From Clostridiales bacterium (GTDB lineage Bacteria; Bacillota; Desulfotomaculia; Desulfotomaculales; VENG01), in NCBI GenBank assembly GCA_021736985.1, contig JAIPEW010000012.1, forward strand, positions 1-64,000: DNA of 64,000 nt, in the 5' to 3' direction. Every line of letters begins with the position of its first letter. The first letter of the stretch is position 1. The notes under the pieces are model-generated. The model had not been told where the DNA came from, ran no database searches, and saw only the letters and a program-made list of their open reading frames with translations. Shown here piece by piece: positions 18,057 to 31,024 of the stretch. Position numbers and translations under genes: made by a program.

Positions 18057-19445
18057 GTGAGTGACAGGTATGATGTTATAGTTGTCGGCTCCGGGCCTGC
18101 AGGGATTTTTTCAGTACTTGAGTTAGTAAAGAATAACAGTAATTTAAAAATACTAATGCTGGAAAAAGGACAGGATATTAATAAACGAGCTTGTCCGGTC
18201 CAGGGAAGTTCTGAAGGTTGCAAAAGATGTAATCCCTGTTCAGTAGTTTGTGGTTGGGGAGGCGCTGGTGCTTTTAGTGATGGGAAACTTACTCTTTCTA
18301 CTGAAATAGGCGGCAGTTTAGAAGAGTATATAGGTGAAAATAAGCTGAAAGAGATGATAGAATATATAGATAAAGTTTACCTTGATTTTGGTGCTCCTCA
18401 AGAGCTTCACGGTCTGGGTAATGAAGAGGAAGTAAAAGATTTCCAGGAGCGTGCAGTTAAAAGTGAGCTCAAGTTAATACCAGTAGCAATACGTCACCTG
18501 GGAACCGGACGCTGCAAAGAAATATTGGAAAATATGTACAAATATTTAATATCCCGGGGAGTAGAGGTACGTACTAAAGTTGCAGTAGATTCGTTGATAG
18601 TTGAAGACGAAGAGGTAAAAGGTATAAAAACAAATAATAATGAAATCATTTATGGAAAAAATGTAATAATAGCTCCAGGAAGAGAAGGGGCGCAGTGGCT
18701 GGCCCGGCAGATTCAAACCTTGAACTTAAATACTGTAATCAACCCGGTGGATATAGGAGTACGGGTAGAACTGCCTGCAAAAGTTATGGAAAAGTTGACC
18801 CAGGTATTTTACGAAGCTAAGTTAATATATTATTCTAAAGCTTTTGATGACAGGGTAAGGACATTTTGTATGAATCCTTACGGTGAAGTCGTCATGGAAA
18901 ATAACGATGGTTTGGTTACTGTTAATGGTCACAGTCATGCCTATAAGAAAACAGAAAATACTAACTTTGCAGTTTTGGTTAGCAAGACTTTTACTGAACC
19001 TTTTAAAGAACCAATAGCTTATGGAAAATATATTGCCAGTCTGGCTAACTTGCTTGGTGATGGTGTTATTGTTCAGCGTTTAGGAGATTTAATTACTGGA
19101 CAAAGGACAACCAAAGCCAGGATGAGTAAATGCCTTGTTAGACCTACTTTAACCAAGGCTACACCGGGCGATTTGAGCTTAGTATTTCCCTACCGCCACC
19201 TGGTGGCGGTAGTAGAAATGCTAAAAGCACTAGATGAAGTAGCTCCAGGAGTATACTCCAGGTATACCCTGCTTTACGGTGTGGAAGTGAAGTTTTATTC
19301 TTCACGGCTGTCGTTAAGCAATTCATTGGAAACAGAAATAAAAAACCTTTATGCGGTTGGCGACGGTGCAGGGGTAACCAGGGGGTTAGCACAGGCATCA
19401 TCTGCCGGTGTAATTGCTGCCCGGGAAATACTCAACAGGCTTTAA
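18057..19445 (+). CDS. Uncharacterised FAD-dependent dehydrogenase (COG2509 type)
   Basis: The 462-aa flavoprotein has an N-terminal Rossmann motif DVIVVGSGPAGIFSVLEL, a Cys-rich segment (CPVQGSSEGCKRCNPCSVVC), WGGAGAFSDGKLTL, VIIAPGREGAQWL and a C-terminal AVGDGAGVTRGLAQASS that completes the FAD site. This is the arrangement of the COG2509 oxidoreductases, whose substrate is unknown. GTG 18057 with GGAGGG eight bases upstream is preferred over ATG-like codons further up. Transcription starts from its own promoter and passes a terminator-like hairpin, so conditional expression is likely. Confidence 0.85.
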   Translation: MSDRYDVIVVGSGPAGIFSVLELVKNNSNLKILMLEKGQDINKRACPVQGSSEGCKRCNPCSVVCGWGGAGAFSDGKLTLSTEIGGSLEEYIGENKLKEMIEYIDKVYLDFGAPQELHGLGNEEEVKDFQERAVKSELKLIPVAIRHLGTGRCKEILENMYKYLISRGVEVRTKVAVDSLIVEDEEVKGIKTNNNEIIYGKNVIIAPGREGAQWLARQIQTLNLNTVINPVDIGVRVELPAKVMEKLTQVFYEAKLIYYSKAFDDRVRTFCMNPYGEVVMENNDGLVTVNGHSHAYKKTENTNFAVLVSKTFTEPFKEPIAYGKYIASLANLLGDGVIVQRLGDLITGQRTTKARMSKCLVRPTLTKATPGDLSLVFPYRHLVAVVEMLKALDEVAPGVYSRYTLLYGVEVKFYSSRLSLSNSLETEIKNLYAVGDGAGVTRGLAQASSAGVIAAREILNRL

Positions 19446-19455
19446 GGAGGTATAT

Positions 19456-20739
19456 ATGTCTACTGTAGTTTTGATTGGTGCCCAATGGGGTGATGAGGGG
19501 AAAGGGAAGGTCACTGACTATTTAGCAGAAAAAGCAGAGATTGTTGTACGTTATGCAGGTGGAAATAATGCCGGGCATACTGTGGTTGTTGGTGATCAGA
19601 CGTTTCAATTGCACCTTATACCTTCGGGTATTTTGTATGCGGACAAGCCTTGTATTGTAGGAAACGGCACGGTAATTGACCCAGAAGTTTTGCTTGATGA
19701 ATTGGAAGGATTAAAAAATAGGGGGATAAGCATTAAAAATTTGCGTATAAGTCCCAAAGCGCATGTTATTATGCCTTATCACCGTATTATTGATGCCGCT
19801 GATGAAAAAAGCAAAGGCACTAAAAAAATAGGGACTACGGGACGCGGCATAGGTCCGGCTTATTCTGACAAAGCTTCTCGTGTTGGAATTCGTGTTACGG
19901 ATTTGATCGACGAGGAAAATTTTCCATTGTTGTTGAAAGGTGCCTTAGAGGAAAAAAATAGATTATTGAGAGATTACTACGGTATTCCAGAGATGGATTA
20001 TAATACAATACTCAAAGATTATCAAAAATATGCTGCAGATTTGAAGCAATATGTTGAAGATATCTCTGTATTAGTAGAAGAAGCTATTAAAGAGGATAAA
20101 AATATTCTTTTTGAAGGTGCGCAGGGTACACTTTTAGACCTGGATCACGGAACTTATCCTTATGTTACTTCCAGTCACCCGATTGCTGCCTCAGCATGTT
20201 TGGGAACTGGAATAGGACCTACAAGAATTAACAGAGTTGCAGGAGTTGCTAAGGCTTATGTGACGAGGGTTGGCAGCGGTCCCTTCCCTACTGAACTATT
20301 TGATAATACTGGGGATTATATTCGTAAGCAGGGGCATGAGTATGGGACAACTACTGGACGCCCGCGGCGCTGTGGGTGGTTTGATGCAGTAGTAGCCCGT
20401 TATTCGGCACGTGTAAACGGGTTGGATTACCTGGCTGTTACAAAACTGGATGTCTTAACCGGCTTAGATACTATAAAAATATGTACCGGTTACAAGTATA
20501 GGGGCGAGGTAATTTCTGAATTCCCGTGTGGGCGTGATGCACTAAAAGACTGCGAACCCTGTTACGAGGAATTCTCGGGATGGAAAGATGATATTTCCCT
20601 GGTACGCAATTACCAGGAGCTTCCTGATAACGCAAAAAAATACTTGGAGCGTGTAAGTGAAGTTTCCGGTGTGCCAGTAGGTATAATAGGTGTGGGCCCT
20701 AAGAGAGACCAGACCATTATTTTAAAAGAAATGTATTAA
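19456..20739 (+). CDS. purA: Adenylosuccinate synthetase
   Basis: This is the GTP-dependent first step from IMP to AMP. The P-loop region LIGAQWGDEGKGKVTDYLAE, GGNNAGHTVV, the IMP-binding TTGRGIGPAYSDKASR and LDHGTYPYVTSSHP are all present. ATG 19456 follows AAGGAGG and gives 427 aa, the normal size. The open frame extends 14 codons further upstream into the preceding gene but has no ribosome-binding site there. The start is 10 bp after the FAD dehydrogenase stop, so the two are probably co-transcribed. Confidence 0.96.
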   Translation: MSTVVLIGAQWGDEGKGKVTDYLAEKAEIVVRYAGGNNAGHTVVVGDQTFQLHLIPSGILYADKPCIVGNGTVIDPEVLLDELEGLKNRGISIKNLRISPKAHVIMPYHRIIDAADEKSKGTKKIGTTGRGIGPAYSDKASRVGIRVTDLIDEENFPLLLKGALEEKNRLLRDYYGIPEMDYNTILKDYQKYAADLKQYVEDISVLVEEAIKEDKNILFEGAQGTLLDLDHGTYPYVTSSHPIAASACLGTGIGPTRINRVAGVAKAYVTRVGSGPFPTELFDNTGDYIRKQGHEYGTTTGRPRRCGWFDAVVARYSARVNGLDYLAVTKLDVLTGLDTIKICTGYKYRGEVISEFPCGRDALKDCEPCYEEFSGWKDDISLVRNYQELPDNAKKYLERVSEVSGVPVGIIGVGPKRDQTIILKEMY

Positions 20740-20791
20740 AAGTTAAAACTATGTACACCTTCTAATTTCAGTTAATGTTTTATACTAAAAT

Positions 20792-20827
20792 AAGGACCGG
20801 GATAGTCCCCGGTCCTAAAAATTTTTT
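20792..20827 (+). terminator. Rho-independent terminator of purA
   Basis: AGGACCGGG and CCCCGGTCCT pair around a 5-nt loop, followed by AAAAATTTTTTT. Confidence 0.85.
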
Positions 20828-20847
20828 TATTATATATTAATAAAATA

Positions 20848-20876
20848 TTGACTCGGAAGTTAACTTGTTGTAATAT
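20848..20876 (+). promoter_or_regulatory. Putative promoter of the tRNA-Lys/tRNA-Glu unit
   Basis: TTGACT at 20848-20853 and TAATAT at 20871-20876 are spaced by 17 bp, and the TAATAT ends 29 bp before the first tRNA. Confidence 0.65.
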
Positions 20877-20905
20877 ATCAAAGTGCGATTAATGAAAAAC
20901 ACATT

Positions 20906-20981
20906 GAGCCATTAGCTCAGTCGGAAGAGCACCTGACTTTTAATCAGGGTGTCCCAGGTTCGAGCCCTGGATGGCTCACCA
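20906..20981 (+). tRNA. tRNA-Lys (anticodon TTT)
   Basis: A complete cloverleaf with acceptor GAGCCAT/ATGGCTC, anticodon arm CCTGA-CTTTTAA-TCAGG, T-arm CCAGG-TTCGAGC-CCTGG and an encoded CCA end. The length is 76 nt. Confidence 0.96.
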
Positions 20982-20985
20982 GTAT

Positions 20986-21061
20986 GGCCCCATGGTCAAG
21001 TGGTTTAAGACACCGCCCTTTCACGGCGGTAACGCGGGTTCGAATCCCGCTGGGGTCACCA
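20986..21061 (+). tRNA. tRNA-Glu (anticodon TTC)
   Basis: A complete cloverleaf with acceptor GGCCCCA/TGGGGTC, anticodon arm CCGCC-CTTTCAC-GGCGG, T-arm CGGG-TTCGAAT-CCCG and an encoded CCA end. It is 4 bp after tRNA-Lys, in one transcript. Confidence 0.96.
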
Positions 21062-21107
21062 TATATAATTTAAGCCCTGTATTTTATGCAGGGCTTAAAT
21101 TATATAT
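21061..21107. terminator. Terminator of the tRNA unit
   Basis: A perfect 19-bp inverted repeat (arms 21061-21079 and 21089-21107) with the core AAGCCCTG starts at the last base of tRNA-Glu. Confidence 0.85.
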
Positions 21108-21162
21108 ATGGTGATTATACAAAACATCTAGACGTTTTTGATAAAATATTTATAAAAACTTA

Positions 21163-21191
21163 TTGCATAATTGGAAGCTCAATTCTATAAT
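21163..21191 (+). promoter_or_regulatory. Putative promoter of the scfA-scfB unit
   Basis: TTGCAT at 21163-21168 and TATAAT at 21186-21191 are spaced by 17 bp, about 50 bp upstream of the scfA start. Confidence 0.65.
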
Positions 21192-21245
21192 CATGTAGTG
21201 GAAAATTTTTTAAAATGTTAAAGATTATATAAGGGGGAAGTTGTA

Positions 21246-21395
21246 TTGGCTAAACACATAAAAACGCTAAATAAAGGATGTTTGCAGAAGCGGGTTGAAA
21301 AAACTGGATGTGGGGAATGTCCTACCTCATGCCAGTCTGCATGTAAAACTTCTTGTACAGTTGGCAATCAAGCATGCATTAATAATAACAGGTAA
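21246..21395 (+). CDS. scfA: SCIFF (six-cysteines-in-forty-five) ranthipeptide precursor
   Basis: This 49-aa peptide begins MAKHIKTLNKGC and has the typical ladder CGECPTSCQSACKTSCTVGN followed by a last Cys. SCIFF peptides are almost universal in Clostridia. Their Cys residues are linked by thioether bonds to downstream residues by the radical-SAM enzyme ScfB, and a link to quorum sensing has been proposed. The start is TTG 21246, preceded by GGGGGAAG. There are seven Cys in all, with the additional one at residue 12. scfB follows 57 bp later, behind a terminator-like hairpin. Confidence 0.93.
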   Translation: MAKHIKTLNKGCLQKRVEKTGCGECPTSCQSACKTSCTVGNQACINNNR

Positions 21396-21401
21396 TTATA
21401 T

Positions 21402-21434
21402 ACCTTGTCCCGGAAGGGATGAGGTCTTTTTTTT
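21402..21434 (+). terminator. Attenuating terminator between scfA and scfB
   Basis: A 10-bp stem (ACCTTGTCCC with GGGATGAGGT, two G-U pairs) with a GGAA tetraloop runs directly into TCTTTTTTTT. Partial read-through would give much more precursor than maturase. Confidence 0.82.
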
Positions 21435-21452
21435 ACGAGGGAGGTTATAATA

Positions 21453-22814
21453 ATGATACACCAATTTACTTTTGACGGCATAAATATTGTATTAGACGTG
21501 CATAGTGGAAGTTTGCACATGGTGGACGAATTAACAAGTAAAATATTGGAGTTATATCCTGTTCATAATGAGAATATTATAAAAGAAAAATTAAGTTGTT
21601 ATTATGATGTAGAACAAATTGATGAATCAATTGAAGAAATAAAAGAGCTTATGGATGCCGGGACTTTGTTTTGCTGCGATGAAGTAGGCCCTACCTTTAG
21701 CCCGGAGGATAATACAATTATAAAAGCTATGTGCCTTCATTTAGCACATGATTGTAATTTGCGCTGTCGTTATTGTTTTGCAGGCCAGGGCCCGTTTGGT
21801 ATGGATCGCACAATCATGTCCTACGATGTGGGTAAAAAGGCACTTGATTTTTTAATGGAAGCCTCTGGTTCGAGAAAGCATATAGAAGTTGATTTTTTTG
21901 GTGGAGAGCCGCTGTTAAATTTTGAGGTAATGAAACAATTAGTAGAATACGGGAATAGCATAGCCTATAAATATGGAAAAAAAGTAAAATACACTGTAAC
22001 TACTAACTGTGTTCTTTTAAAAGGCGAAATAAAAGAATTTATTGGACAAAAAGGGATGGATATTGTATTAAGCCTGGATGGTCGTCCCGAAGTCCAGAAT
22101 TCTATGCGCCCGTTTATTAGTGGAAGAGGCAGTTATGATATTGTCTCCAAAAATATTGTAAATTTCCTTAATGATTATAATAACTTGACTTATTATGTAC
22201 GCGGAACTTTTACCAGGCACAATTTAGATTTTGCTTCAGACGTAATGCATATGGCTGAGTTGGGACTAGAAAGTCTTTCAGTTGAGCCGGTAGTTGGAGG
22301 TTTTGGTGAAGACTATGCCCTGCAAGAAGAAGATTTGCCTCAAATATATACTGAGTACGAAAGATTGACCCGAAAATTACTTGAAATAAGGCGCAAAGGC
22401 AGTAAAGTGCGTTTTTTCCATTTTAATGTTCCTTTGGACGGTGGTCCTTGTTTAAAAAAACGTTTATCTAACTGCGGTGCTGGGAATGAATATGTTGCTG
22501 TTACTCCACAGGGAGAAATTTACCCTTGCCACCAGTTTGTAGGAAAGCATGATTTTAAGCTCGGAGATATAAGTAGCGGCATATTAAACAAGGACATAAT
22601 GAATTATTTTCGTAATGCTCATGTTTATAATAAAGAAAATTGTCCTGATTGCTGGGCAAAATTTTTCTGCAGCGGCGGGTGTCATGCCAATGCATATGAA
22701 GAAAATAATACTATATATAAACCGCACAGTATGGGTTGTAAATTAATGAAAAAAAGGTTGGAGTGCGCACTTTACTTGAAAGTAAGAGAAATGTTAGATA
22801 AACAGCGGGGGTGA
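21453..22814 (+). CDS. scfB: Radical SAM/SPASM SCIFF peptide maturase
   Basis: This enzyme forms thioether cross-links in the SCIFF peptide. The N-terminal ~90 residues resemble the peptide-recognition domain of such maturases. The radical SAM motif CNLRCRYCFAGQG lies near residue 100, and DFFGGEPLLNF follows. The SPASM region has its Cys set (NCGAGNEYVAVTPQGEIYPC, CPDCWAKFFCSGGCHANAY, then GCKL). Length is 453 aa, normal for the family. ATG 21453 follows GAGGGAGG. The peptidase gene 4 bp downstream is probably in the same transcript. Confidence 0.95.
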   Translation: MIHQFTFDGINIVLDVHSGSLHMVDELTSKILELYPVHNENIIKEKLSCYYDVEQIDESIEEIKELMDAGTLFCCDEVGPTFSPEDNTIIKAMCLHLAHDCNLRCRYCFAGQGPFGMDRTIMSYDVGKKALDFLMEASGSRKHIEVDFFGGEPLLNFEVMKQLVEYGNSIAYKYGKKVKYTVTTNCVLLKGEIKEFIGQKGMDIVLSLDGRPEVQNSMRPFISGRGSYDIVSKNIVNFLNDYNNLTYYVRGTFTRHNLDFASDVMHMAELGLESLSVEPVVGGFGEDYALQEEDLPQIYTEYERLTRKLLEIRRKGSKVRFFHFNVPLDGGPCLKKRLSNCGAGNEYVAVTPQGEIYPCHQFVGKHDFKLGDISSGILNKDIMNYFRNAHVYNKENCPDCWAKFFCSGGCHANAYEENNTIYKPHSMGCKLMKKRLECALYLKVREMLDKQRG

Positions 22815-22818
22815 GTTT

Positions 22819-24198
22819 TTGATCTCACCATGTAAAAAAACAATATTCTCTTACAGTAGAATATATTTAACCATTTCTTTTATCTTGATAACAATATCGA
22901 TTTTTCTAGCAGCAAGTAATTTTATATTGTGGAAAGTAGTAGTTGAAGGTAAAAATGCTGCAGTATCTCAAGATCGCCAGAGTATAAAAGAAGCTGTTCG
23001 AAAATTGCATAAGCAGAAAGAAAGTAAGTACGGATTTGAAGTTGATACAAAACAGGACTTGAGAATTATGCCTTTACTGACATTAAAGCCGCGTGATTTT
23101 ACATGCGCTAAAACCCGGGATGAAATTATTAATCAACTAAATGATAAGGTGGATTTTACAACCAGCGGTGTAGCAATTGTTATTAATGGTAAGGAAAGGG
23201 TGTATGTAAGCAATATTGAAACTGCTAGAAAAAGTTTGAAAAAAATAGAAGACAAGTATTGCAGCCGGCAAGATGCTGCAGTAAGTTTTAAAGAAGAGAT
23301 TAAATTAACAAGCATGGATGATATTCTAGCAAATAAAATTGATGATTTGAATAGTGCTGTGGATAAACTTGGCGGTAATGCTCAAAAGACAGAATATTAT
23401 TGGATACAGGAAGGCGATACCCTGTGGGATATAGCTTCAGAAAAGGGTATAAAAAGAGAAAAAATATTACAGTTGAATGACGAAATTAAAAATAAAAAAT
23501 TGCACGTGGGGCAAAAAATTAAGCTTGTTCAAAAAAAACATTTACTTAACGTAATAACCCGGTATAAAGATGTTCAATGCGAGGATATCCCGTACAGTGT
23601 AATGCAAAAAAAGGATAATGAGCTTGATATTACTGAAAATAAACTAATACAAAAAGGTATTCCAGGTAAAAAAAGAACAATATACCAGGTTGTTGAGGAA
23701 AATGGTGCAATAGTTAAACAAAAAACAGTAAACCAGGAAATAATTAAAGAACCTCGTCCACAAATTGAAGTTACCGGAAATGATGCGCTGTTGGCTTACA
23801 GGTCAGGTAGAGAGATACACTGGCCGGTACAAGGTAATATAACTTCCGGGTTTGGCTGGAGGCATGGAGAAATGCACAGCGGCGTTGATATTGCAGCTTC
23901 TTATGGGGCCCCGGTAGTTGCTATGATGTCAGGAAATGTCCAGGTCGCAAAAACTAAAAAACAATATGGAAAATTAATAAAGATAGTGCATAAAAACGGG
24001 TTAGCAACTAAATATGCACACTTATCCAGTATACTGGTACCTGTGGGAAAGGTGGTATCCAGTGGCGAGAAAATTGGCTCGATAGGTGTAACAGGTAATG
24101 CTACAGGCCCTCACCTGCACTTTGAAGTCTTGATAAACGGAAAAACAGTTGATCCTTTAGAATATTTTAAAAGTTGTGGTATTAACCATAATAATTAA
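22819..24198 (+). CDS. Membrane-anchored LysM-G5-M23 peptidase
   Basis: The 459-aa envelope protein has an N-terminal transmembrane helix (about residues 13-37), a long extracytoplasmic region, a LysM domain (YYWIQEGDTLWDIASEKGIK), a G5-like segment (ENKLIQKGIPGKKRTIYQVV), and a C-terminal M23 domain. The zinc ligands of M23 are visible in HSGVDIAASYGAPV and in GPHLHFEV. It probably cleaves peptidoglycan peptide bridges and may act in sporulation or cell separation. TTG 22819 lies 4 bp after scfB. Whether it has anything to do with SCIFF processing is unknown. Confidence 0.88.
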   Translation: MISPCKKTIFSYSRIYLTISFILITISIFLAASNFILWKVVVEGKNAAVSQDRQSIKEAVRKLHKQKESKYGFEVDTKQDLRIMPLLTLKPRDFTCAKTRDEIINQLNDKVDFTTSGVAIVINGKERVYVSNIETARKSLKKIEDKYCSRQDAAVSFKEEIKLTSMDDILANKIDDLNSAVDKLGGNAQKTEYYWIQEGDTLWDIASEKGIKREKILQLNDEIKNKKLHVGQKIKLVQKKHLLNVITRYKDVQCEDIPYSVMQKKDNELDITENKLIQKGIPGKKRTIYQVVEENGAIVKQKTVNQEIIKEPRPQIEVTGNDALLAYRSGREIHWPVQGNITSGFGWRHGEMHSGVDIAASYGAPVVAMMSGNVQVAKTKKQYGKLIKIVHKNGLATKYAHLSSILVPVGKVVSSGEKIGSIGVTGNATGPHLHFEVLINGKTVDPLEYFKSCGINHNN

Positions 24199-24364
24199 AT
24201 CCCCACGGGCTTTCTAACTACAAAGGAATTTAAAATTCTTTTGCAGCTAAGTGAATGCCGGTGTTTTTTTTAGGAGATTCCGTGTTTTCTTCCGTAAATT
24301 TACCGGCCCCCTTAATTTGCAGATTGTTATCGCACCATAGCTTTCAGGTAATTTTCTATTTAAT
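24195..24364 (-). repeat. Intergenic repeat, copy 5
   Basis: The head reads TAAATCCCCACGGGCTTTC, and the tail contains AAATTTACCGGCCCCCTTAA then TTTGCAGATTGTTA and CATAGCTTTCAGG. The tail is a near-exact reverse complement of the left ends of copies 6 and 9. The core is short and AT-rich. About 170 bp of unexplained sequence follows up to the TPR gene, including a run of ten G bases. Confidence 0.75.
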
Positions 24365-24553
24365 AAGCAGGGGGGGGGGATGGGGTAGCCCCGGGTGTTT
24401 ACGTTCATCATATTGAGCAGCTGTCTGGTTCAAGATAAGGGCAATAAAATGAATTACCAAAAAACGTTCTTGCTCGATTAAATTATATGTATTATATTAT
24501 AATATATAATTTCAAAGTAATTAACTTTAAGAGTGCAGGAAAGAAGTGATTAT
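24365..24553. other. Intergenic stretch after repeat copy 5
   Basis: It contains a G-run of ten (around 24370) followed by GGGGTAGCCCCGGG, then AT-rich sequence with overlapping TATATT/TATAAT hexamers just before the TPR gene, which may be its promoter. No gene is visible. Confidence 0.4.
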
Positions 24554-25132
24554 GTGTCTATTTTTATAAATGCATCGAAAAACAAAAAAAGACAAAAAAT
24601 TATTTTCTTCATAACAGCTGTCCTGATGGCAGCCGGGCTTATTGGATCTACCCTGATAGGTGCTTTTGCCAGTAATGAAGCTAAGACGGCATCTCAGCAA
24701 ATGACTCAGCCAGGTGCAAATAATGTATCTCAACTAGAAAAACAGGTGAAAGAAAATCCTCAAAATGCCGACTTGCTTGAAAAGTTGGCAAAGGCTTATT
24801 ACAGGGAAAACCAGTTGGACAAGTCAATAAAAAGTTATAAAAAAGCCCTGGAACTTGAGCCTGCGAGCGCGGAACTTCGCACATCTTATGCTATTACTTT
24901 ATTTGATGCCAATGAGTATAAAAAAGCCGTGGATCAAATGGAAAAAGAGATAAAACAAAATCCAGGTAACAATACAGCACATTTTTACCTGGGAGAATTC
25001 TATGCTTACGGCTTAAAAGATTATAGTAGTGCTATAGATGAATTAAATACATTTGTCAAAAATTCAAAAGCTGAAGACGAAAATGTTAAGCATGCAAAGC
25101 AAATAATTAAGGAGCTGGATAAAAAAGAGTAA
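24554..25132 (+). CDS. Membrane-anchored TPR protein
   Basis: The 192-aa product has one N-terminal transmembrane helix (IIFFITAVLMAAGLIGSTLI) followed by three or four tetratricopeptide repeats, for example ADLLEKLAKAYYRENQLDKS and AELRTSYAITLFDANEYKKA. The TPR part would face outside and mediate protein contacts, but no specific partner is suggested. GTG 24554 is chosen, and an alternative GTG at 24533 would add seven residues. A hairpin follows the stop, so it is probably monocistronic. Confidence 0.75.
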   Translation: MSIFINASKNKKRQKIIFFITAVLMAAGLIGSTLIGAFASNEAKTASQQMTQPGANNVSQLEKQVKENPQNADLLEKLAKAYYRENQLDKSIKSYKKALELEPASAELRTSYAITLFDANEYKKAVDQMEKEIKQNPGNNTAHFYLGEFYAYGLKDYSSAIDELNTFVKNSKAEDENVKHAKQIIKELDKKE

Positions 25133-25243: not shown

Positions 25244-26131
25244 ATGTTCGGTCAAAAAGTTGCTAAAATAACCAGGGTTTTTATTGTATTTTTACTTGCT
25301 GTTTTTATGACAATAACCTTATTTTTACTGTGGATGCCCTTAAACGCAAGGACATATTTCTATGAGATTTACCGTGAATTACTTAAAACAAAAACAATAG
25401 TCAATACATGGGCCTGGGACTCTCTGGAAAGCAAGCATTTTGTATTACGGTACAAGGCCGGAGATGAAAAAAATGCTCAAATGGTAATTAAAGTAGCAGA
25501 AAAGTATTTTAAATTACTTGCGAATAAGTATGAATTTGCTATTTCAACAAAAATACCGGTTATAATATATCCTACGCGAAAAGAATTAAATTCATATTTT
25601 GGCTGGCCGGCCAGTGAAAGTGCCATGGGTGTGTACTGGGGAGGAGTAATTAGAATTCTTTCTCCCGAAGCATGGATTGAGTATAAGCATGAACAGGAGA
25701 AAAACGAGATATTTGATTTACAAGGTCCTGTTGCTCATGAATTAACTCACCTAATAATCGATTATAAATGCAGGGGAAATTATCCCCGCTGGTTTACAGA
25801 AGGTGTGGCACAATATGAAGAATTTAAACTTACCGGGTATATTATTGGAAGTTCTGAAAAAAAACTTAATGCAAGACATTACTCTTTTGATAGAATAGGG
25901 ACAGAATTTGATAAATTACCTGACCAAACGCTGGCTTACAGACAATCCTTATCCATGGTTCAGTATATAATAGAACACCATAATGAAGAAGAAATGAATA
26001 AAATAATAACAAAATTATCCAGCGGCTGGTCGTTAAATGATATATTCTGCGAAGTAATAACTTTAAATAATTTTGAAGAAAATTGGCAGATATGGTTAAA
26101 TAATAAGGTGAAAGAAGGATATATTAAGTAA
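25244..26131 (+). CDS. Membrane-anchored MA-type zinc metallopeptidase
   Basis: The 295-aa protein has an N-terminal helix (VFIVFLLAVFMTITLFLLWM) and an extracytoplasmic gluzincin-type domain. The motif VAHELTHLI supplies the HEXXH zinc site, and the downstream WFTEGVAQYEE supplies the glutamate ligand, as in the peptidase MA-like families found in spore formers. The substrate is unknown. GGGGAG stands before ATG 25244. It precedes murA, so a cell-wall role is possible, but that is inference from position only. Confidence 0.82.
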   Translation: MFGQKVAKITRVFIVFLLAVFMTITLFLLWMPLNARTYFYEIYRELLKTKTIVNTWAWDSLESKHFVLRYKAGDEKNAQMVIKVAEKYFKLLANKYEFAISTKIPVIIYPTRKELNSYFGWPASESAMGVYWGGVIRILSPEAWIEYKHEQEKNEIFDLQGPVAHELTHLIIDYKCRGNYPRWFTEGVAQYEEFKLTGYIIGSSEKKLNARHYSFDRIGTEFDKLPDQTLAYRQSLSMVQYIIEHHNEEEMNKIITKLSSGWSLNDIFCEVITLNNFEENWQIWLNNKVKEGYIK

Positions 26132-26194: not shown

Positions 26195-27460
26195 ATGAAG
26201 CAAGCCGAATATAAATTAATGATTGAAGGAGGACGGTCATTAAACGGAAAAGTGCAAGTGAGCGGGGCTAAAAACGCTTCACTGGCTCACTTGTGTGCAG
26301 CAACAATGGCCAGAGATCCGGTTATACTTGAAAATGTGCCTGATATAAAAGATATCAGGGTGGTAATAGAAATATTGCAGGAAATTGGATGCGAAATTAG
26401 CTGGCTGGGCCCCGGTGAGTTAAAACTTTTTGCGCCAGAAAAATTAAAAAGACAGCCGCCTTTTGAATTAGTAAGAAAATTAAGAGCTTCTAACCTTTTG
26501 TTGGGGCCCCTGATTGCTCGTTATGGCAGTGTGCAGTTAGCACTGCCAGGTGGATGCAATATAGGAGTGAGACCTATGGATCTGCATTTCAAGGGGCTGT
26601 CAGGGCTCGGGACTGAAATTAATGTTAATCAGGGTGTGGTGGAGTCTAACACAAGGGGACTTCAAGGTTCGAGAATTTACATGGATTTTCCAAGTGTTGG
26701 TGCTACAGAAAATATAATGATGGCAGCATGTATGGCCCGGGGACAAACGGTGCTGGAAAACGTAGCCAAAGAACCAGAAGTGGTTGACCTGGCTAACTTT
26801 TTAAACTGCATGGGAGTTAAAGTGCGCGGTGCTGGGACAGATATTATAAAGATCGACGGTAATTCAGAAATGGGCGGCTGCTCGCGATACTCCATAATTC
26901 CTGACCGAATAGAAGCAGGTACCTTTATGGTAGCTGCAGCTGCTACAGGGGGAAATGTAGAAGTAGAAAACGTGATTCCTTTTCACCTGGAACCCATTTC
27001 AGCAAAACTCCGGGAGGCTGGTGTAGAGGTTATTGAATTGGAAGAAAGCATAAAAGTTCGGGCAGGTAAAGATATGTATCCAGTAGATTTAAAAACCCTT
27101 CCTTATCCCGGTTTTCCTACTGATATGCAGTCCCAGTTTATGAGCATGTTATGTGCTGTGCCTGGTACCAGTGTGATTGTAGAAAATATTTTTGAAAACC
27201 GGTTTCAAATTGTTGATGAACTTAAAAGAATGGGTGCAAATATAAAAGTAGAAGGCCGGGCTGCCATAGTAGAGGGCCCGGTACAGTTCCAGGGTGCGCA
27301 TGTCAAAGCTACAGACCTGCGAGCTGGTGCAGCCCTGGTGGTTGCAGGGTTAATGGCAGAGGGGTGCACACAAATATCAAATGTTAAGTATATTGACCGC
27401 GGATATTACCTGTTGCAAGAAAAAATGACAAATCTTGGAGCTGCGATATGGAGAGAATAG
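26195..27460 (+). CDS. murA: UDP-N-acetylglucosamine 1-carboxyvinyltransferase
   Basis: This is the first committed step of peptidoglycan synthesis. The product of 421 aa has the family start (IEGGRSLNGKVQVSGAKNAS), RKLRASNLLLGPLIARYG, and the catalytic loop LPGGCNIGVRPMDLH with the active-site Cys that fosfomycin attacks. FPTDMQSQFMSMLC and the C-terminal TDLRAGAALVVAGL are also present. GGAAGG lies upstream of ATG 26195. It is followed 4 bp later by rlmH. Confidence 0.95.
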   Translation: MKQAEYKLMIEGGRSLNGKVQVSGAKNASLAHLCAATMARDPVILENVPDIKDIRVVIEILQEIGCEISWLGPGELKLFAPEKLKRQPPFELVRKLRASNLLLGPLIARYGSVQLALPGGCNIGVRPMDLHFKGLSGLGTEINVNQGVVESNTRGLQGSRIYMDFPSVGATENIMMAACMARGQTVLENVAKEPEVVDLANFLNCMGVKVRGAGTDIIKIDGNSEMGGCSRYSIIPDRIEAGTFMVAAAATGGNVEVENVIPFHLEPISAKLREAGVEVIELEESIKVRAGKDMYPVDLKTLPYPGFPTDMQSQFMSMLCAVPGTSVIVENIFENRFQIVDELKRMGANIKVEGRAAIVEGPVQFQGAHVKATDLRAGAALVVAGLMAEGCTQISNVKYIDRGYYLLQEKMTNLGAAIWRE

Positions 27461-27463
27461 ATA

Positions 27464-27943
27464 TTGCAAATTGTTATACTGGCAGTAGGTAAACTAAAAA
27501 AAGAATACCTGTTGGAAGCACAAAATGATTATGTTAAGCGTTTAAAGCCTTATGCACGCATTGAAATTAAGGAACTGCCGGGTAAGAATTTGCAAGAAAA
27601 ACATAATCACAGCATAGCACAAAAAATTAAGCAAAAAGAAGGCCAGAACATATTAAAAAAGATAAAAGAAAGCAGTTACGTAATAGTTTTAGACAGGTAT
27701 GGTGAAGAAATAAATTCTAATGAAATGTCGACTAAAATTAACAAATTGGGGGTCGGTGGAAAAAGTCATATAACTTTTATAATCGGCGGGTCGCTAGGTT
27801 TGAGCGCGGAAGTCCTTGACCGGGCTGATTGGAAACTGTCTTTTTCTAAGCTTACTTTCCCGTATCAATTAACGCGTATTATACTTTTGGAGCAGGTTTA
27901 CCGGAGTTTCAAGATAATTAAAGGCGAAACGTACCATAAATGA
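27464..27943 (+). CDS. rlmH: 23S rRNA pseudouridine1915 N3-methyltransferase RlmH
   Basis: This is an SPOUT-class methyltransferase acting on the assembled 70S ribosome. The 159-aa product starts with IVILAVGKLKKEYL and has VIVLDRYGEEINSNEMS, the knot motif TFIIGGSLGLSAEVL and the C-terminal LLEQVYRSFKIIKGETYHK, all conserved. The start is TTG 27464, just after murA, without a strong Shine-Dalgarno, which suggests coupling. Its place near the origin is typical. Confidence 0.95.
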   Translation: MQIVILAVGKLKKEYLLEAQNDYVKRLKPYARIEIKELPGKNLQEKHNHSIAQKIKQKEGQNILKKIKESSYVIVLDRYGEEINSNEMSTKINKLGVGGKSHITFIIGGSLGLSAEVLDRADWKLSFSKLTFPYQLTRIILLEQVYRSFKIIKGETYHK

Positions 27944-28308
27944 TTTTTTTGTGACTGGCTATGGACTAAGATTAATTAATTAGTTAAAATATAAACAAGT
28001 ATAAAAGATAAGAGTCAATGTGCATTTTTTAGAATAAATCTAAATTATTGAGATAATTTAATGAAAATTTAAAAATCTAATTTTATAAGGAAGGAAAAAT
28101 AAAAAATATAGCGAATTATTCATTAAATCAAGGTATAAGTGTTTTTAGTTAAAGTCATATAGATAGCTAATTCTTTTATTTTAAGTAGTAATGTGAAAAA
28201 TCACTCAAAAGAGTCCCGAATTTTCATTATTGTAAGGGGGTGCAACACAGCTACTATTTTAAATAGTCTGGTTCTTTAATTTGTATTTAATAAAAGGAGG
28301 TATTGTTA
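27944..28308. other. AT-rich intergenic region upstream of dsrA
   Basis: These 365 bp probably contain the dsr promoter, but I cannot place a convincing -35/-10 pair. GTGA-AAAA-TCAC at 28193-28204 is a small inverted repeat that could be a regulator site. AAAGGAGG at 28293-28300 is the ribosome-binding site of dsrA. No gene is visible. Confidence 0.5.
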
Positions 28309-29727
28309 GTGGCTTTTGAACCCAAAGAGGAACAAAAAACAATAAATTATGAAGAAGCGCGTATTTACAGCCAGGAAGAATTGAGTAATTATACTGAAGA
28401 AGAGCTTAAAAATTATAAAATTAAGCATGATGTTCCCGATCTGGATGACCTGGAAAAAGGCCCGTGGCCAAGTTTTGTTACTGACGCCAAGCGGGAAGAT
28501 TTGCACAGGAAAAAGCTTAATGATGAGCGGTTGCTAATCAGCAAAAATTGTGTAGAAGATTTGTTAGGTCAATTGCAGCTATCATTTGACCATGGTGAAA
28601 CTCACTGGAAGCACGGAGGTATCGTTGGCGTTTTTGGATACGGCGGCGGTGTTATTGGAAGATATTCTGATGTACAAGAAGATTTCCCCGGTGTAGCTTC
28701 TTTCCATACTTTACGTGTAAACCAGGCAGCCAGTAAGTTTTATGATACTAACTACTTAAGAACTCTTTGTGACATGTGGGAATACCGCGGTAGTGGACTT
28801 CTAAACATGCATGGTTCTACCGGTGATATCATCTTACTGGGAACTACCACCGAGCAGTTAGAACCTGTATTCCACGAAATGACTCATGAACTACAGCAGG
28901 ATCTGGGCGGGTCTGGATCTAACCTGCGTACACCTTCTTGTTGTATTGGAAAGGCTCGCTGTGAGTGGTCTTGTATAGATACACAGGACATGTGCTACGA
29001 ATTAACTCAATTCTATCAGGACGAACTGCACCGCCCAATGTTCCCTTATAAGTTTAAGTTCAAGTTTGATGGTTGTCCTAATGGTTGTGTTGCATCTATT
29101 GCACGTTCAGATATGTCTTTCATTGGAACATGGAAAGATAATATTAAGATTGATCAAGACAAAGTAAAAGCTTATATTAATGGCGAAGCACAACCTAATG
29201 CAGGTTCACATAATGGAAGAGATTGGGGCAAATTCGACATACAAAAAGAAGTAATTGATAGATGCCCAACTGGCTGTATGTCCTTAGAAAATGGTGAACT
29301 GAAGATCGACAATGAAAATTGCAATCGCTGCATGCACTGCATTAACGTAATGCCCCAGGCATTGAGACCTGGCGATGACAAAGGTGTAACTATCTTATTT
29401 GGAGCTAAAGCACCTATCCTGGAAGGCGCTCAAATGTCAGTAATGACTATTCCATTCATGAAAGCAGAACCCCCTTATGACAATATTAAAGATGTTATTG
29501 AAAACGTTTGGGATTGGTGGATGGAAGAAGGTAAAAACCGCGAGCGTCTCGGAGAACTTATACAGCGTAAGACCTTGCAGGAATTCCTTAAAGTTGTTGG
29601 AGTACCCGCAGCACCTCAGATGGTTACTGCACCGAGGGCAAACCCCTATATATTCTGGAAAGAAGAAGACGTGCCTGGCGGGTTTGAAAGAGATGTTGAG
29701 GATTATCGTTCCAGGCATAAGAGGTAA
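28309..29727 (+). CDS. dsrA: Dissimilatory sulfite reductase alpha subunit
   Basis: With DsrB this cytoplasmic siroheme enzyme reduces sulfite in the last stage of sulfate respiration. The 472-aa product has the siroheme/[4Fe-4S] Cys set (SCCIGKARCEWSCIDTQDMC and FDGCPNGCVASIARSD) and an inserted ferredoxin domain (CPTGCMSLENG, then CNRCMHCINVMPQAL). GTG 28309 is preferred over TTG 28303 because it lies 8 bp after GGAGG. It is followed by dsrB and dsrD and has stronger codon adaptation than its AT-rich upstream neighbours, in line with high expression. Confidence 0.97.
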   Translation: MAFEPKEEQKTINYEEARIYSQEELSNYTEEELKNYKIKHDVPDLDDLEKGPWPSFVTDAKREDLHRKKLNDERLLISKNCVEDLLGQLQLSFDHGETHWKHGGIVGVFGYGGGVIGRYSDVQEDFPGVASFHTLRVNQAASKFYDTNYLRTLCDMWEYRGSGLLNMHGSTGDIILLGTTTEQLEPVFHEMTHELQQDLGGSGSNLRTPSCCIGKARCEWSCIDTQDMCYELTQFYQDELHRPMFPYKFKFKFDGCPNGCVASIARSDMSFIGTWKDNIKIDQDKVKAYINGEAQPNAGSHNGRDWGKFDIQKEVIDRCPTGCMSLENGELKIDNENCNRCMHCINVMPQALRPGDDKGVTILFGAKAPILEGAQMSVMTIPFMKAEPPYDNIKDVIENVWDWWMEEGKNRERLGELIQRKTLQEFLKVVGVPAAPQMVTAPRANPYIFWKEEDVPGGFERDVEDYRSRHKR

Positions 29728-29836
29728 GTTAACTGCAGCAGCTTAACAGGTTAGCAAGTAATATGATTAATATTTTATGAATAAGGTAGACGCGCCGGAT
29801 AAAACGGCCAGTTATACCATACAAGGAGGTAGTCAA

Positions 29837-31024
29837 ATGGCTCTATCAACAGAGAGATTGGGTAAATATGATCCTAATAATCCACAGGAAAACCGGGTTA
29901 CTGACATTGGCCCACGCCATTTCTGGCAGTATTTCCCGGAAGTTATAAAAAATAATTACGGTAAATGGGCATACCATGATATTTTAGAACCGGGCATCAT
30001 GGTGCACGTTTCTGAAACCGGAGACAAAGTTTTCACAGTTAGGTGCGGCGGCGCACGCTTTATGACTGTTGAGCATGTGCGTGAAATTTGTGATATTGCT
30101 GATAAGCATTGTGATGGTCATGTGCGTTTTACTACACGTAATAACATTGAGTTTTTGACAGACAGCCATGATAAGATGGTAGCTATGAAAGAAGATATTA
30201 ACAGCAGAAAGACCCCCCATGGCGGCTTTAAGTTCCCCATCGGTGGGACAGGCGCAGGAGTTACTAACATTGTTCATACACAGGGTTTTATTCACTGTCA
30301 TACTCCGGCTACTGATGCTTCTTCCCTGGTTAAAGCAGTTATGGACGAAGTTTTTGATTATTTCACCGGTATGGAACTCCCGGCAAAGGTCAGGATTTCC
30401 ATGGCATGCTGCCTGAACATGTGCGGTGCAGTTCACTGCTCGGATATTGCACTTTTGGGTGTACACAGGAAGCCGCCTATTGTAGACCATGAATATATTG
30501 ATGCTATTTGTGAAATACCATTGGTAACAGCTGCTTGTCCTCTGGGAGCAATTTCACCTAGTAAAACGGAAAGCGGTAAAAAGACAGTTAAAATTAAAGA
30601 AGAACGCTGCATGTTCTGCGGTAACTGCTACACAATGTGCCCCTCTGTTCCCATTTCTGATAAAGAAGGCGACGGCGTAGCTATACTGGCAGGAGGAAAG
30701 CTGTCCAACCGCATGACAGTACCCAAGTTCTCCAAGGTAGTTGTACCCTGGGCCCCGAACAATTTCCCCAGGTTCCCGGAAGTTGTAGATTACATTAAGA
30801 AAATTCTTAATGCATATTCTGAAAGTGCTAACAAGTATGAGCGCTTAGGAGATTGGGCAGAGCGTATTGGTTGGGAGAAATTCTTTGAAAAAACAGATAT
30901 TCCCTTCTCCGAACATCTCATTGATGACTATCGCCTGGCATATGACAGCTATCGTACCAGCACACAATTCAAATTTACCCAGGCAGCATGGGATGTTTCG
31001 AAAAAAGTAGGGGGTATTGATTAA
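29837..31024 (+). CDS. dsrB: Dissimilatory sulfite reductase beta subunit
   Basis: This is the partner of DsrA and holds the catalytically active siroheme. [20 protein letters not shown] supplies the siroheme-linked cluster ligands, and [20 protein letters not shown] is the ferredoxin-type [4Fe-4S] site. [20 protein letters not shown] and [12 protein letters not shown] belong to the substrate-pocket half. ATG 29837 follows AAGGAGGT and gives 395 aa. The open frame begins at 29777, without a ribosome-binding site. It lies 109 bp after dsrA. Confidence 0.97.

Follow-up and report, generated by a model that had tools for sequence, protein, structure and literature searches.

The scfAB-M23 locus

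We analysed a 64-kb window from a Clostridiales bacterium (contig JAIPEW010000012.1 of assembly GCA_021736985.1) that carries a SCIFF (six-Cys-in-45) ranthipeptide locus. Here scfA, which encodes the precursor, and scfB, which encodes its radical SAM/SPASM maturase, are followed by the gene of a LysM-G5-M23 metallopeptidase (called M23 below). G-numbers denote genomes (the source genome is G000, its sister genome G001), L-numbers loci or stretches and f-numbers families. All genes lie on the + strand, in the following order.

19414-20739, + strand: purA (NCBIfam profile match)
20906..21061, + strand: tRNA-Lys and tRNA-Glu, between purA and scfA (tRNA search)
21246-21395, + strand: scfA, 49-aa SCIFF ranthipeptide precursor, TTG start (TIGR03973, PF13165)
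21402-21434, + strand: hairpin and T8, a terminator/attenuator-like element between scfA and scfB
21453-22814, + strand: scfB, radical SAM/SPASM SCIFF maturase, 453 aa (TIGR03974)
22819-24198, + strand: LysM-G5-M23 metallopeptidase, 459 aa, membrane-anchored (Pfam domains)
24533-25132, + strand: TPR-repeat protein (Pfam TPR families; N-terminal hydrophobic segment seen by eye)
25244-26131, + strand: Peptidase_MA_2 protein (PF13485, 50.4 bits versus a cut-off of 32.4)
26195-27460, + strand: murA (TIGR01072, 543 bits versus a cut-off of 393)
27464-27943, + strand: 159-aa protein, which we take to be RlmH (no NCBIfam match at 1e-60)
28303-29727, + strand: dsrA (NCBIfam profile match)
29777-31024, + strand: dsrB (NCBIfam profile match)

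The first-pass annotation of this stretch had described a 49-aa scfA with a TTG start and seven Cys, a T-tailed hairpin behind it, then scfB and, 4 nt further on, the M23 gene; all of these are confirmed in the sequence. It had also described the downstream side as free of transporters, and indeed none was recognised among the genes that follow M23 (those for the TPR, Peptidase_MA, MurA, RlmH-labelled, DsrA and DsrB proteins). Genes for WalR and WalK are absent beside the M23 gene of the source genome, its next neighbours being the TPR, Peptidase_MA and murA genes. An Rfam scan of 20700-24600 returned the two tRNAs alone above the gathering threshold.

Precursor and maturase

ScfA scores above the curated SCIFF cut-offs (79.1 bits versus 50 for TIGR03973, 79.3 bits versus 27 for PF13165). 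Its Cys residues are found at positions 12, 22, 25, 29, 33, 37 and 44, of which the last six form the core within about 45 residues and Cys12 is extra. Relatives were sampled in the class of the source organism (113 genomes belonging to a single order and 18 families) and in the phylum (139 genomes). We compared 146 precursor rows including that of the window, aligned without gaps on the SCQSA motif: 74 from the class, G048 contributing two, and 72 from elsewhere. Cys22, 25, 29 and 44 are present in every row and so is Cys33, the thioether donor, while Cys37 is found in 136 of the 146; Thr35 and Thr38 are each found in 145.

The chemistry of two members of this family has been described. According to two reviews (PMC8326336 and PMC8172795), the thioether of Tte1186a and CteA joins Cys32 to Thr37 in vitro, and that of CteA made in E. 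coli runs from Cys32 to Thr34. By sequence count, the window peptide has these residues as Cys33, Thr38 and Thr35. By analogy with Tte1186 and CteB, ScfB would link Cys33 through a thioether to Thr38 or Thr35; the donor and both candidate acceptors of such a non-alpha Cys-to-Thr bond are present. The locus shares with CteA/CteB (thermocellin) and Tte1186a/Tte1186 the precursor family, the Cys ladder, the Cys33 donor, the Thr35/Thr38 acceptors and the radical SAM/SPASM maturase. It differs from them in the extra Cys12 and in its context, which is scfAB-M23-TPR-Peptidase_MA-murA rather than queA-tgt-yajC-scfAB-secDF or recJ. The disputed acceptor positions also vary naturally, with Val in place of Thr35 in L087 and Gly in place of Thr38 in L089, and these changes could help to decide between Thr34 and Thr37 as the acceptor in CteA.

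Conservation does not extend to Cys12, which the first-pass annotation had singled out. It is private to the window among the 74 class rows and is missing even from the sister genome. Among the 72 other rows, the ungapped register puts a Cys at this position in L037, and as judged by eye the spacing of a Cys to the KHI motif is the same in L069 and L107. Given its occurrence in one class row and such sporadic Cys elsewhere, Cys12 was rejected as a special site.

Ile or Leu stands in place of Cys37 in 10 of the 74 class rows (L117, L119, L120, L121, L127, L133, L186, L187, L189 and L190), nine belonging to f15 and one (G014) to f14, with Cys33 and both Thr residues kept. In G090 (L186) an additional Cys has been gained immediately before the core. 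We considered whether loss of Cys37 is linked to loss of M23 and rejected this, because G090 and G093, in which Cys37 is replaced, retain M23.

ScfB matches TIGR03974 with 600.1 bits (cut-off 425). Its score with NF040492 not_ScfB, the exception model for ScfB-like orphans, is 505.4 bits and stays under the cut-off of that model (855). The protein has the PF04055 (radical SAM) and PF13186 (SPASM) domains, and aligns over residues 1-447 of 453 with the solved chain 5wgg/5why, presumably CteB, at 506.9 bits.

Eight genomes of f8 have lost scfB from between scfA and M23, and in each of them a different contig encodes an ScfB that passes the cut-off. These relocated proteins (L178, L179, L198-L204) are 43-45% identical to the window ScfB, and no scfA match was found near them in the nine stretches fetched. 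G104 holds both ScfB copies, and at L182:5616-5816 a C-terminal scfB remnant (residues 389-445) is still seen between scfA and M23. In G011 scfB and M23 stand together and scfA is on another contig. The adjacency of scfA and M23 after scfB loss was rejected as evidence of a link between them, because a deletion makes its flanks adjacent by default.

A conserved hairpin after scfA

The stem-loop between scfA and scfB (21402-21425) has 10 pairs and a GGAA loop and is followed by a C and eight T. Of 52 class spacers between scfA and scfB, 34 have such a hairpin-plus-T arrangement, where 50 rounds of dinucleotide shuffling gave a mean of 4.5 and a maximum of 9 (spacers shorter than 20 nt were excluded). 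It is also found in 49 of 69 other spacers (shuffle mean 1.6, maximum 5), many of which come from close relatives and are not independent. A consensus fold of 21 class spacers, chosen among the hairpin-bearing ones, has 8 pairs, none of them broken and 2 with compensatory changes.

When a covariance model built from the 21 spacers was run on the source genome, with scoring limited to 150 of 2892 first-look candidates, the window element was returned with an E of 1.9e-6 and the next match with 0.28. Across 44 sources the model gave 13 matches with E <0.01 in loci outside its alignment. Twelve of them lie directly after scfA and one (L223) lies away from it. Five of the 12 (L157, L180, L182, L183 and L185) come from genomes that no longer have scfB between scfA and M23. 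Since the hairpin is kept after scfA where scfB has been lost, it belongs with the end of scfA and not with scfB.

We infer that the hairpin is an attenuator setting the precursor-to-maturase ratio. The hairpin and T tract would stop most transcripts after scfA and let a minority read through into scfB, which would yield much precursor and little maturase.

The LysM-G5-M23 peptidase

Pfam places LysM at residues 196-236 of the peptidase, G5 at 251-320 and M23 at 352-446, the last with 107.4 bits for PF01551 (cut-off 28.7); a hydrophobic segment starts at residue 19, and residues 60-190 have no Pfam match. Of the 72 rows not labelled as paralogues, 71 retain H353, D357, H432 and H434, the remaining row being gapped there, and in 5 of the 12 paralogue rows the third active-site residue is Asn. 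Retention of the active site suggests that M23 is an enzyme under constraint. Both LysM and G5 bind the cell wall. Because of its family and these domains, the protein is most likely a membrane-anchored peptidoglycan endopeptidase, which would cut cross-links of the wall. It shares the M23 domain and the H/D/H/H set with M23 peptidoglycan endopeptidases that have LysM/G5 (solved M23 domains include 9gy1, ShyA, DipM and LytM) and differs in its unmatched residues 60-190.

In a tree of 82 M23 rows most families group together; its deep forks are weak, and it comes with a long-branch warning. The window protein itself sits on a long branch (1.05 versus a median of 0.23). The source genome has a second full-length M23 match (G000:C32:3699-4979), 33% identical to the first. 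With 22 promoter-like matches in the region, compared with 23.7 in shuffled sequence, M23 may or may not have a promoter of its own.

Conservation of the neighbourhood

scfA was found in 103 of the 113 class genomes, which makes SCIFF very widespread for a peptide whose role is barely known. A long M23 match lies downstream of it on the same strand in 87 of the 103, the source included, at a distance of 1.4-3.0 kb in 79 genomes and of <700 nt in 8, all from f8. In six of the remaining scfA genomes the long M23 is on another contig, and in one it is upstream on the opposite strand. For the last nine there was none among the matches listed; these include G079, which is 72% complete, and G025, which has a shorter match nearby. 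Conversely, five class genomes have a long M23 and no scfA match.

The other neighbours are kept to a similar extent. In class loci with enough sequence, scfB follows scfA on the same strand in 58 of 66 cases (one of them the L182 remnant), M23 in 57 of 66, TPR in 59 of 64, Peptidase_MA in 50 of 59 and murA in 45 of 53, and purA precedes scfA by no more than 3 kb in 13 of 51. Retention being about equal, it is the whole downstream side that is conserved, M23 no more than TPR.

Outside the class, 111 sampled genomes have scfA over the cut-off. With M23 matches taken at E 1e-40, M23 stands downstream in the same orientation, at most 6 kb away, in 35 of them, from 17 families (gap of 1.3-2.3 kb in 26). 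It is far away or on the opposite strand of the same contig in 10 and on another contig in 28, and 38 of the 111 have no match at that E value. Other homes of scfAB lie between queA/tgt/yajC/DUF3792 and secD/secF or recJ. Among 78 scfAB loci whose gene order was compared (80 minus L037 and L079, in which the scfB frame was not found), an M23 match is present only in L036, which comes from the sister genome. There are thus two recurrent chromosomal homes for scfAB, a cell-wall block and the yajC-secDF block.

The spacing between scfB and M23 varies. From the scfB stop to M23 there are 4 nt in the source genome and 31 nt in its sister, and M23 is probably co-transcribed with scfB in the source genome, as the 4-nt gap suggests. 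In 49 class loci the gap is >100 nt in 40, 100 nt or less in 8 (4 nt again in L129) and undefined in 1, all gaps being lower bounds because they were measured to the earliest possible start codon. Tight spacing is therefore not general among the relatives. A terminator-like hairpin stands before M23 in 15 of the 49 loci, a raw count without a shuffle baseline. In G114 and G147 (L237, L238) two extra frames are inserted between scfB and M23, with a gap of 4.5-4.8 kb, and the gaps in G186 and G218 are similar.

These data bear on the idea that the adjacency is an accident of the source genome. The very short gap is unusual and the window M23 sits on its long branch, which would suit such an origin. 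The adjacency throughout the class and in 17 further families refutes it, and we regard it as having practically no chance of being right. Adjacency in this genome alone, which the first-pass annotation had named as grounds for refutation, is thus not what is seen.

A cell-wall block without scfAB

To see M23 away from the peptide genes, we fetched 20 stretches around it: the ten far-away cases and nine of the ten genomes with M23 and without scfA (two stretches for G189; G179 was left out). In L263 (G189) scfB adjoins M23, and the other 19 stretches have no scfB beside it. Of these 19, 13 carry walR and walK downstream of M23 on the same strand, 9 of them with purA upstream, and 4 of the 13 (G173, G208, G209 and G226) are from genomes without an scfA match. 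Peptidase_MA matches adjoin M23 in several loci without scfAB.

Four WalRK-linked loci were checked with WalR and WalK profiles. The kinase was best matched by WalK in all of them, with 783 bits in G173, 780 in G132, 570 in G163 and 568 in G195 (cut-off 725), and the regulator by YycF/WalR, with 384, 374, 309 and 330 bits respectively (cut-off 340), so that G163 and G195 stay under both cut-offs. YycH follows in G195 and G132. The M23 proteins of the four genomes all have M23 and G5, and three also have LysM. Since M23 occurs beside walRK without scfB, there is a cell-wall block that has no need of scfAB and counts such a peptidase among its members.

The gene order purA-walRKHIJ is familiar from Bacillus. 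Compared with the purA-walRKHIJ locus of Bacillota (WalR/YycF, WalK, YycH), the block shares rplI, dnaB and purA upstream, and in the sampled WalRK-type genomes the M23 gene stands upstream of walR. It differs in that the scfAB-M23 stretches from beyond the class yielded no walRK (0 of 18); there scfAB is upstream of M23. The block would then run rplI-dnaB-purA, M23 and either walRK or TPR-Peptidase_MA-murA, with scfAB placed upstream of M23.

WalK-family scores were compared in 16 hand-picked genomes (scores only, matches at E up to 1e-100). The best ones are 568-783 bits in the four WalRK-type genomes, whose second-best scores are 346-431, and 377-473 bits in the other 12, the source included. 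The best matches of the source genome, on another contig, reach 430 and 418 bits (cut-off 725). Judging by these scores, the 12 genomes may have only related kinases and no strong WalK. This leads to a speculative scenario in which scfAB replaced walRK in the purA block and the modified SCIFF would be a wall-status or cell-cell signal controlling the M23/TPR/Peptidase_MA hydrolases in bacteria that would have lost a true WalK. We consider it very improbable. The non-overlap of scfAB-M23 and M23-WalRK loci gives a testable hint of an envelope role.

Separately, L141:10-2213 (G010) has what by eye is a response-regulator and histidine-kinase pair directly upstream of scfA, the kinase matching walK at >150 bits; no other class locus has a kinase match above that score.

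Role of the peptidase

It appears that we are dealing with a locus of a known kind whose neighbour has a second home. Our preferred interpretation, which we regard as probably correct, is that this is an ordinary SCIFF ranthipeptide locus and that M23 is an old neighbour from the cell-wall block, perhaps co-regulated with the peptide genes, rather than a dedicated SCIFF protease or exporter. Because the same kind of peptidase is found in a wall block without peptide genes, M23 is probably a wall enzyme outside the peptide pathway. It would act as a membrane-anchored endopeptidase resident in that block, in most relatives not tightly joined to scfB, with co-regulation possible. Control of wall hydrolases by WalRK is in print (PMC7299342).

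Several observations weigh against this interpretation. No walRK was found in 6 of the 19 stretches, three of which (G120, G162 and G198) have purA upstream, and two of the four WalR/WalK profile checks fell below the curated cut-offs. WalRK-linked and scfAB-linked M23 are putative orthologues matched by type, the tree being one of rows without a WalRK link. The adjacency of scfAB and M23 across many families, with purA near scfA in only 13 of 51 loci, exceeds what a passive neighbour needs, and the 4-nt spacing in the source genome suggests a single transcript. Finally, with WalK scores low in the 12 non-WalRK-type genomes, something else at the locus could sense the wall.

The first-pass annotation had proposed that M23 processes or exports the modified peptide. 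As a leader protease or export partner, M23 would be in keeping with the 4-nt spacing, the conserved adjacency and the fact that no transporter was recognised nearby. Moreover, some M23 enzymes, such as LytM, lysostaphin and LasA, are glycyl-glycine endopeptidases, and Gly-Gly precedes the first core Cys in many SCIFF peptides. The window peptide, however, has Thr-Gly at this site, LysM and G5 bind the wall, and of the 78 loci compared for gene order only that of the sister genome has an M23 match. A dedicated protease for a ribosomally synthesized and post-translationally modified peptide (RiPP) should occur only with RiPP genes, whereas 13 of the 19 stretches have such an M23 upstream of walRK, and four of the 13 belong to genomes in which scfA was not matched. 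The genes for TPR, Peptidase_MA and MurA are moreover retained about equally, and the gap to scfB exceeds 100 nt in 40 of 49 loci. The conserved neighbourhood seen by the first-pass annotation therefore stands and is extended here, while a processing or export role of M23 for SCIFF is without positive support and seems to us highly unlikely. As a milder reading has it, the peptide may have some link to the envelope.

In a further interpretation the peptide and the wall block are one module, in which the modified SCIFF would act in or on the envelope or feed back on M23 and its neighbours, and co-regulation would keep the genes side by side. Such a module would account for M23 lying next to the peptide genes in 87 of 103 class genomes and no more than 6 kb away in 35 of the 111 from elsewhere in the phylum, as well as for the lack of walRK in the 18 scfAB-M23 stretches from beyond the class, and the other recurrent scfAB context, yajC/secD/secF, likewise consists of export genes. 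According to a review (PMC8102284), mutation of precursor and maturase in C. beijerinckii leaves sporulation genes down and agr up. On the other hand, M23 is found without scfAB beside it, Peptidase_MA matches adjoining it in several such loci, and nine genomes (one 72% complete) keep scfA with no long M23 among the matches listed. The scfA-M23 adjacency in the eight genomes that lost scfB is a default outcome and does not test the idea. On this balance, which is drawn from gene neighbourhoods, we see a single module as unlikely.

In the titles and abstracts searched on SCIFF and ranthipeptides, the scfAB-M23 neighbourhood is not named; we make no claim that it is unreported. A conserved attenuator-like hairpin follows scfA, and the indication that the peptidase is not SCIFF-specific spares a wrong lead. 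It should be added that dsrA and dsrB follow the block in the window, and that the source organism is therefore probably a sulfate or sulfite reducer.

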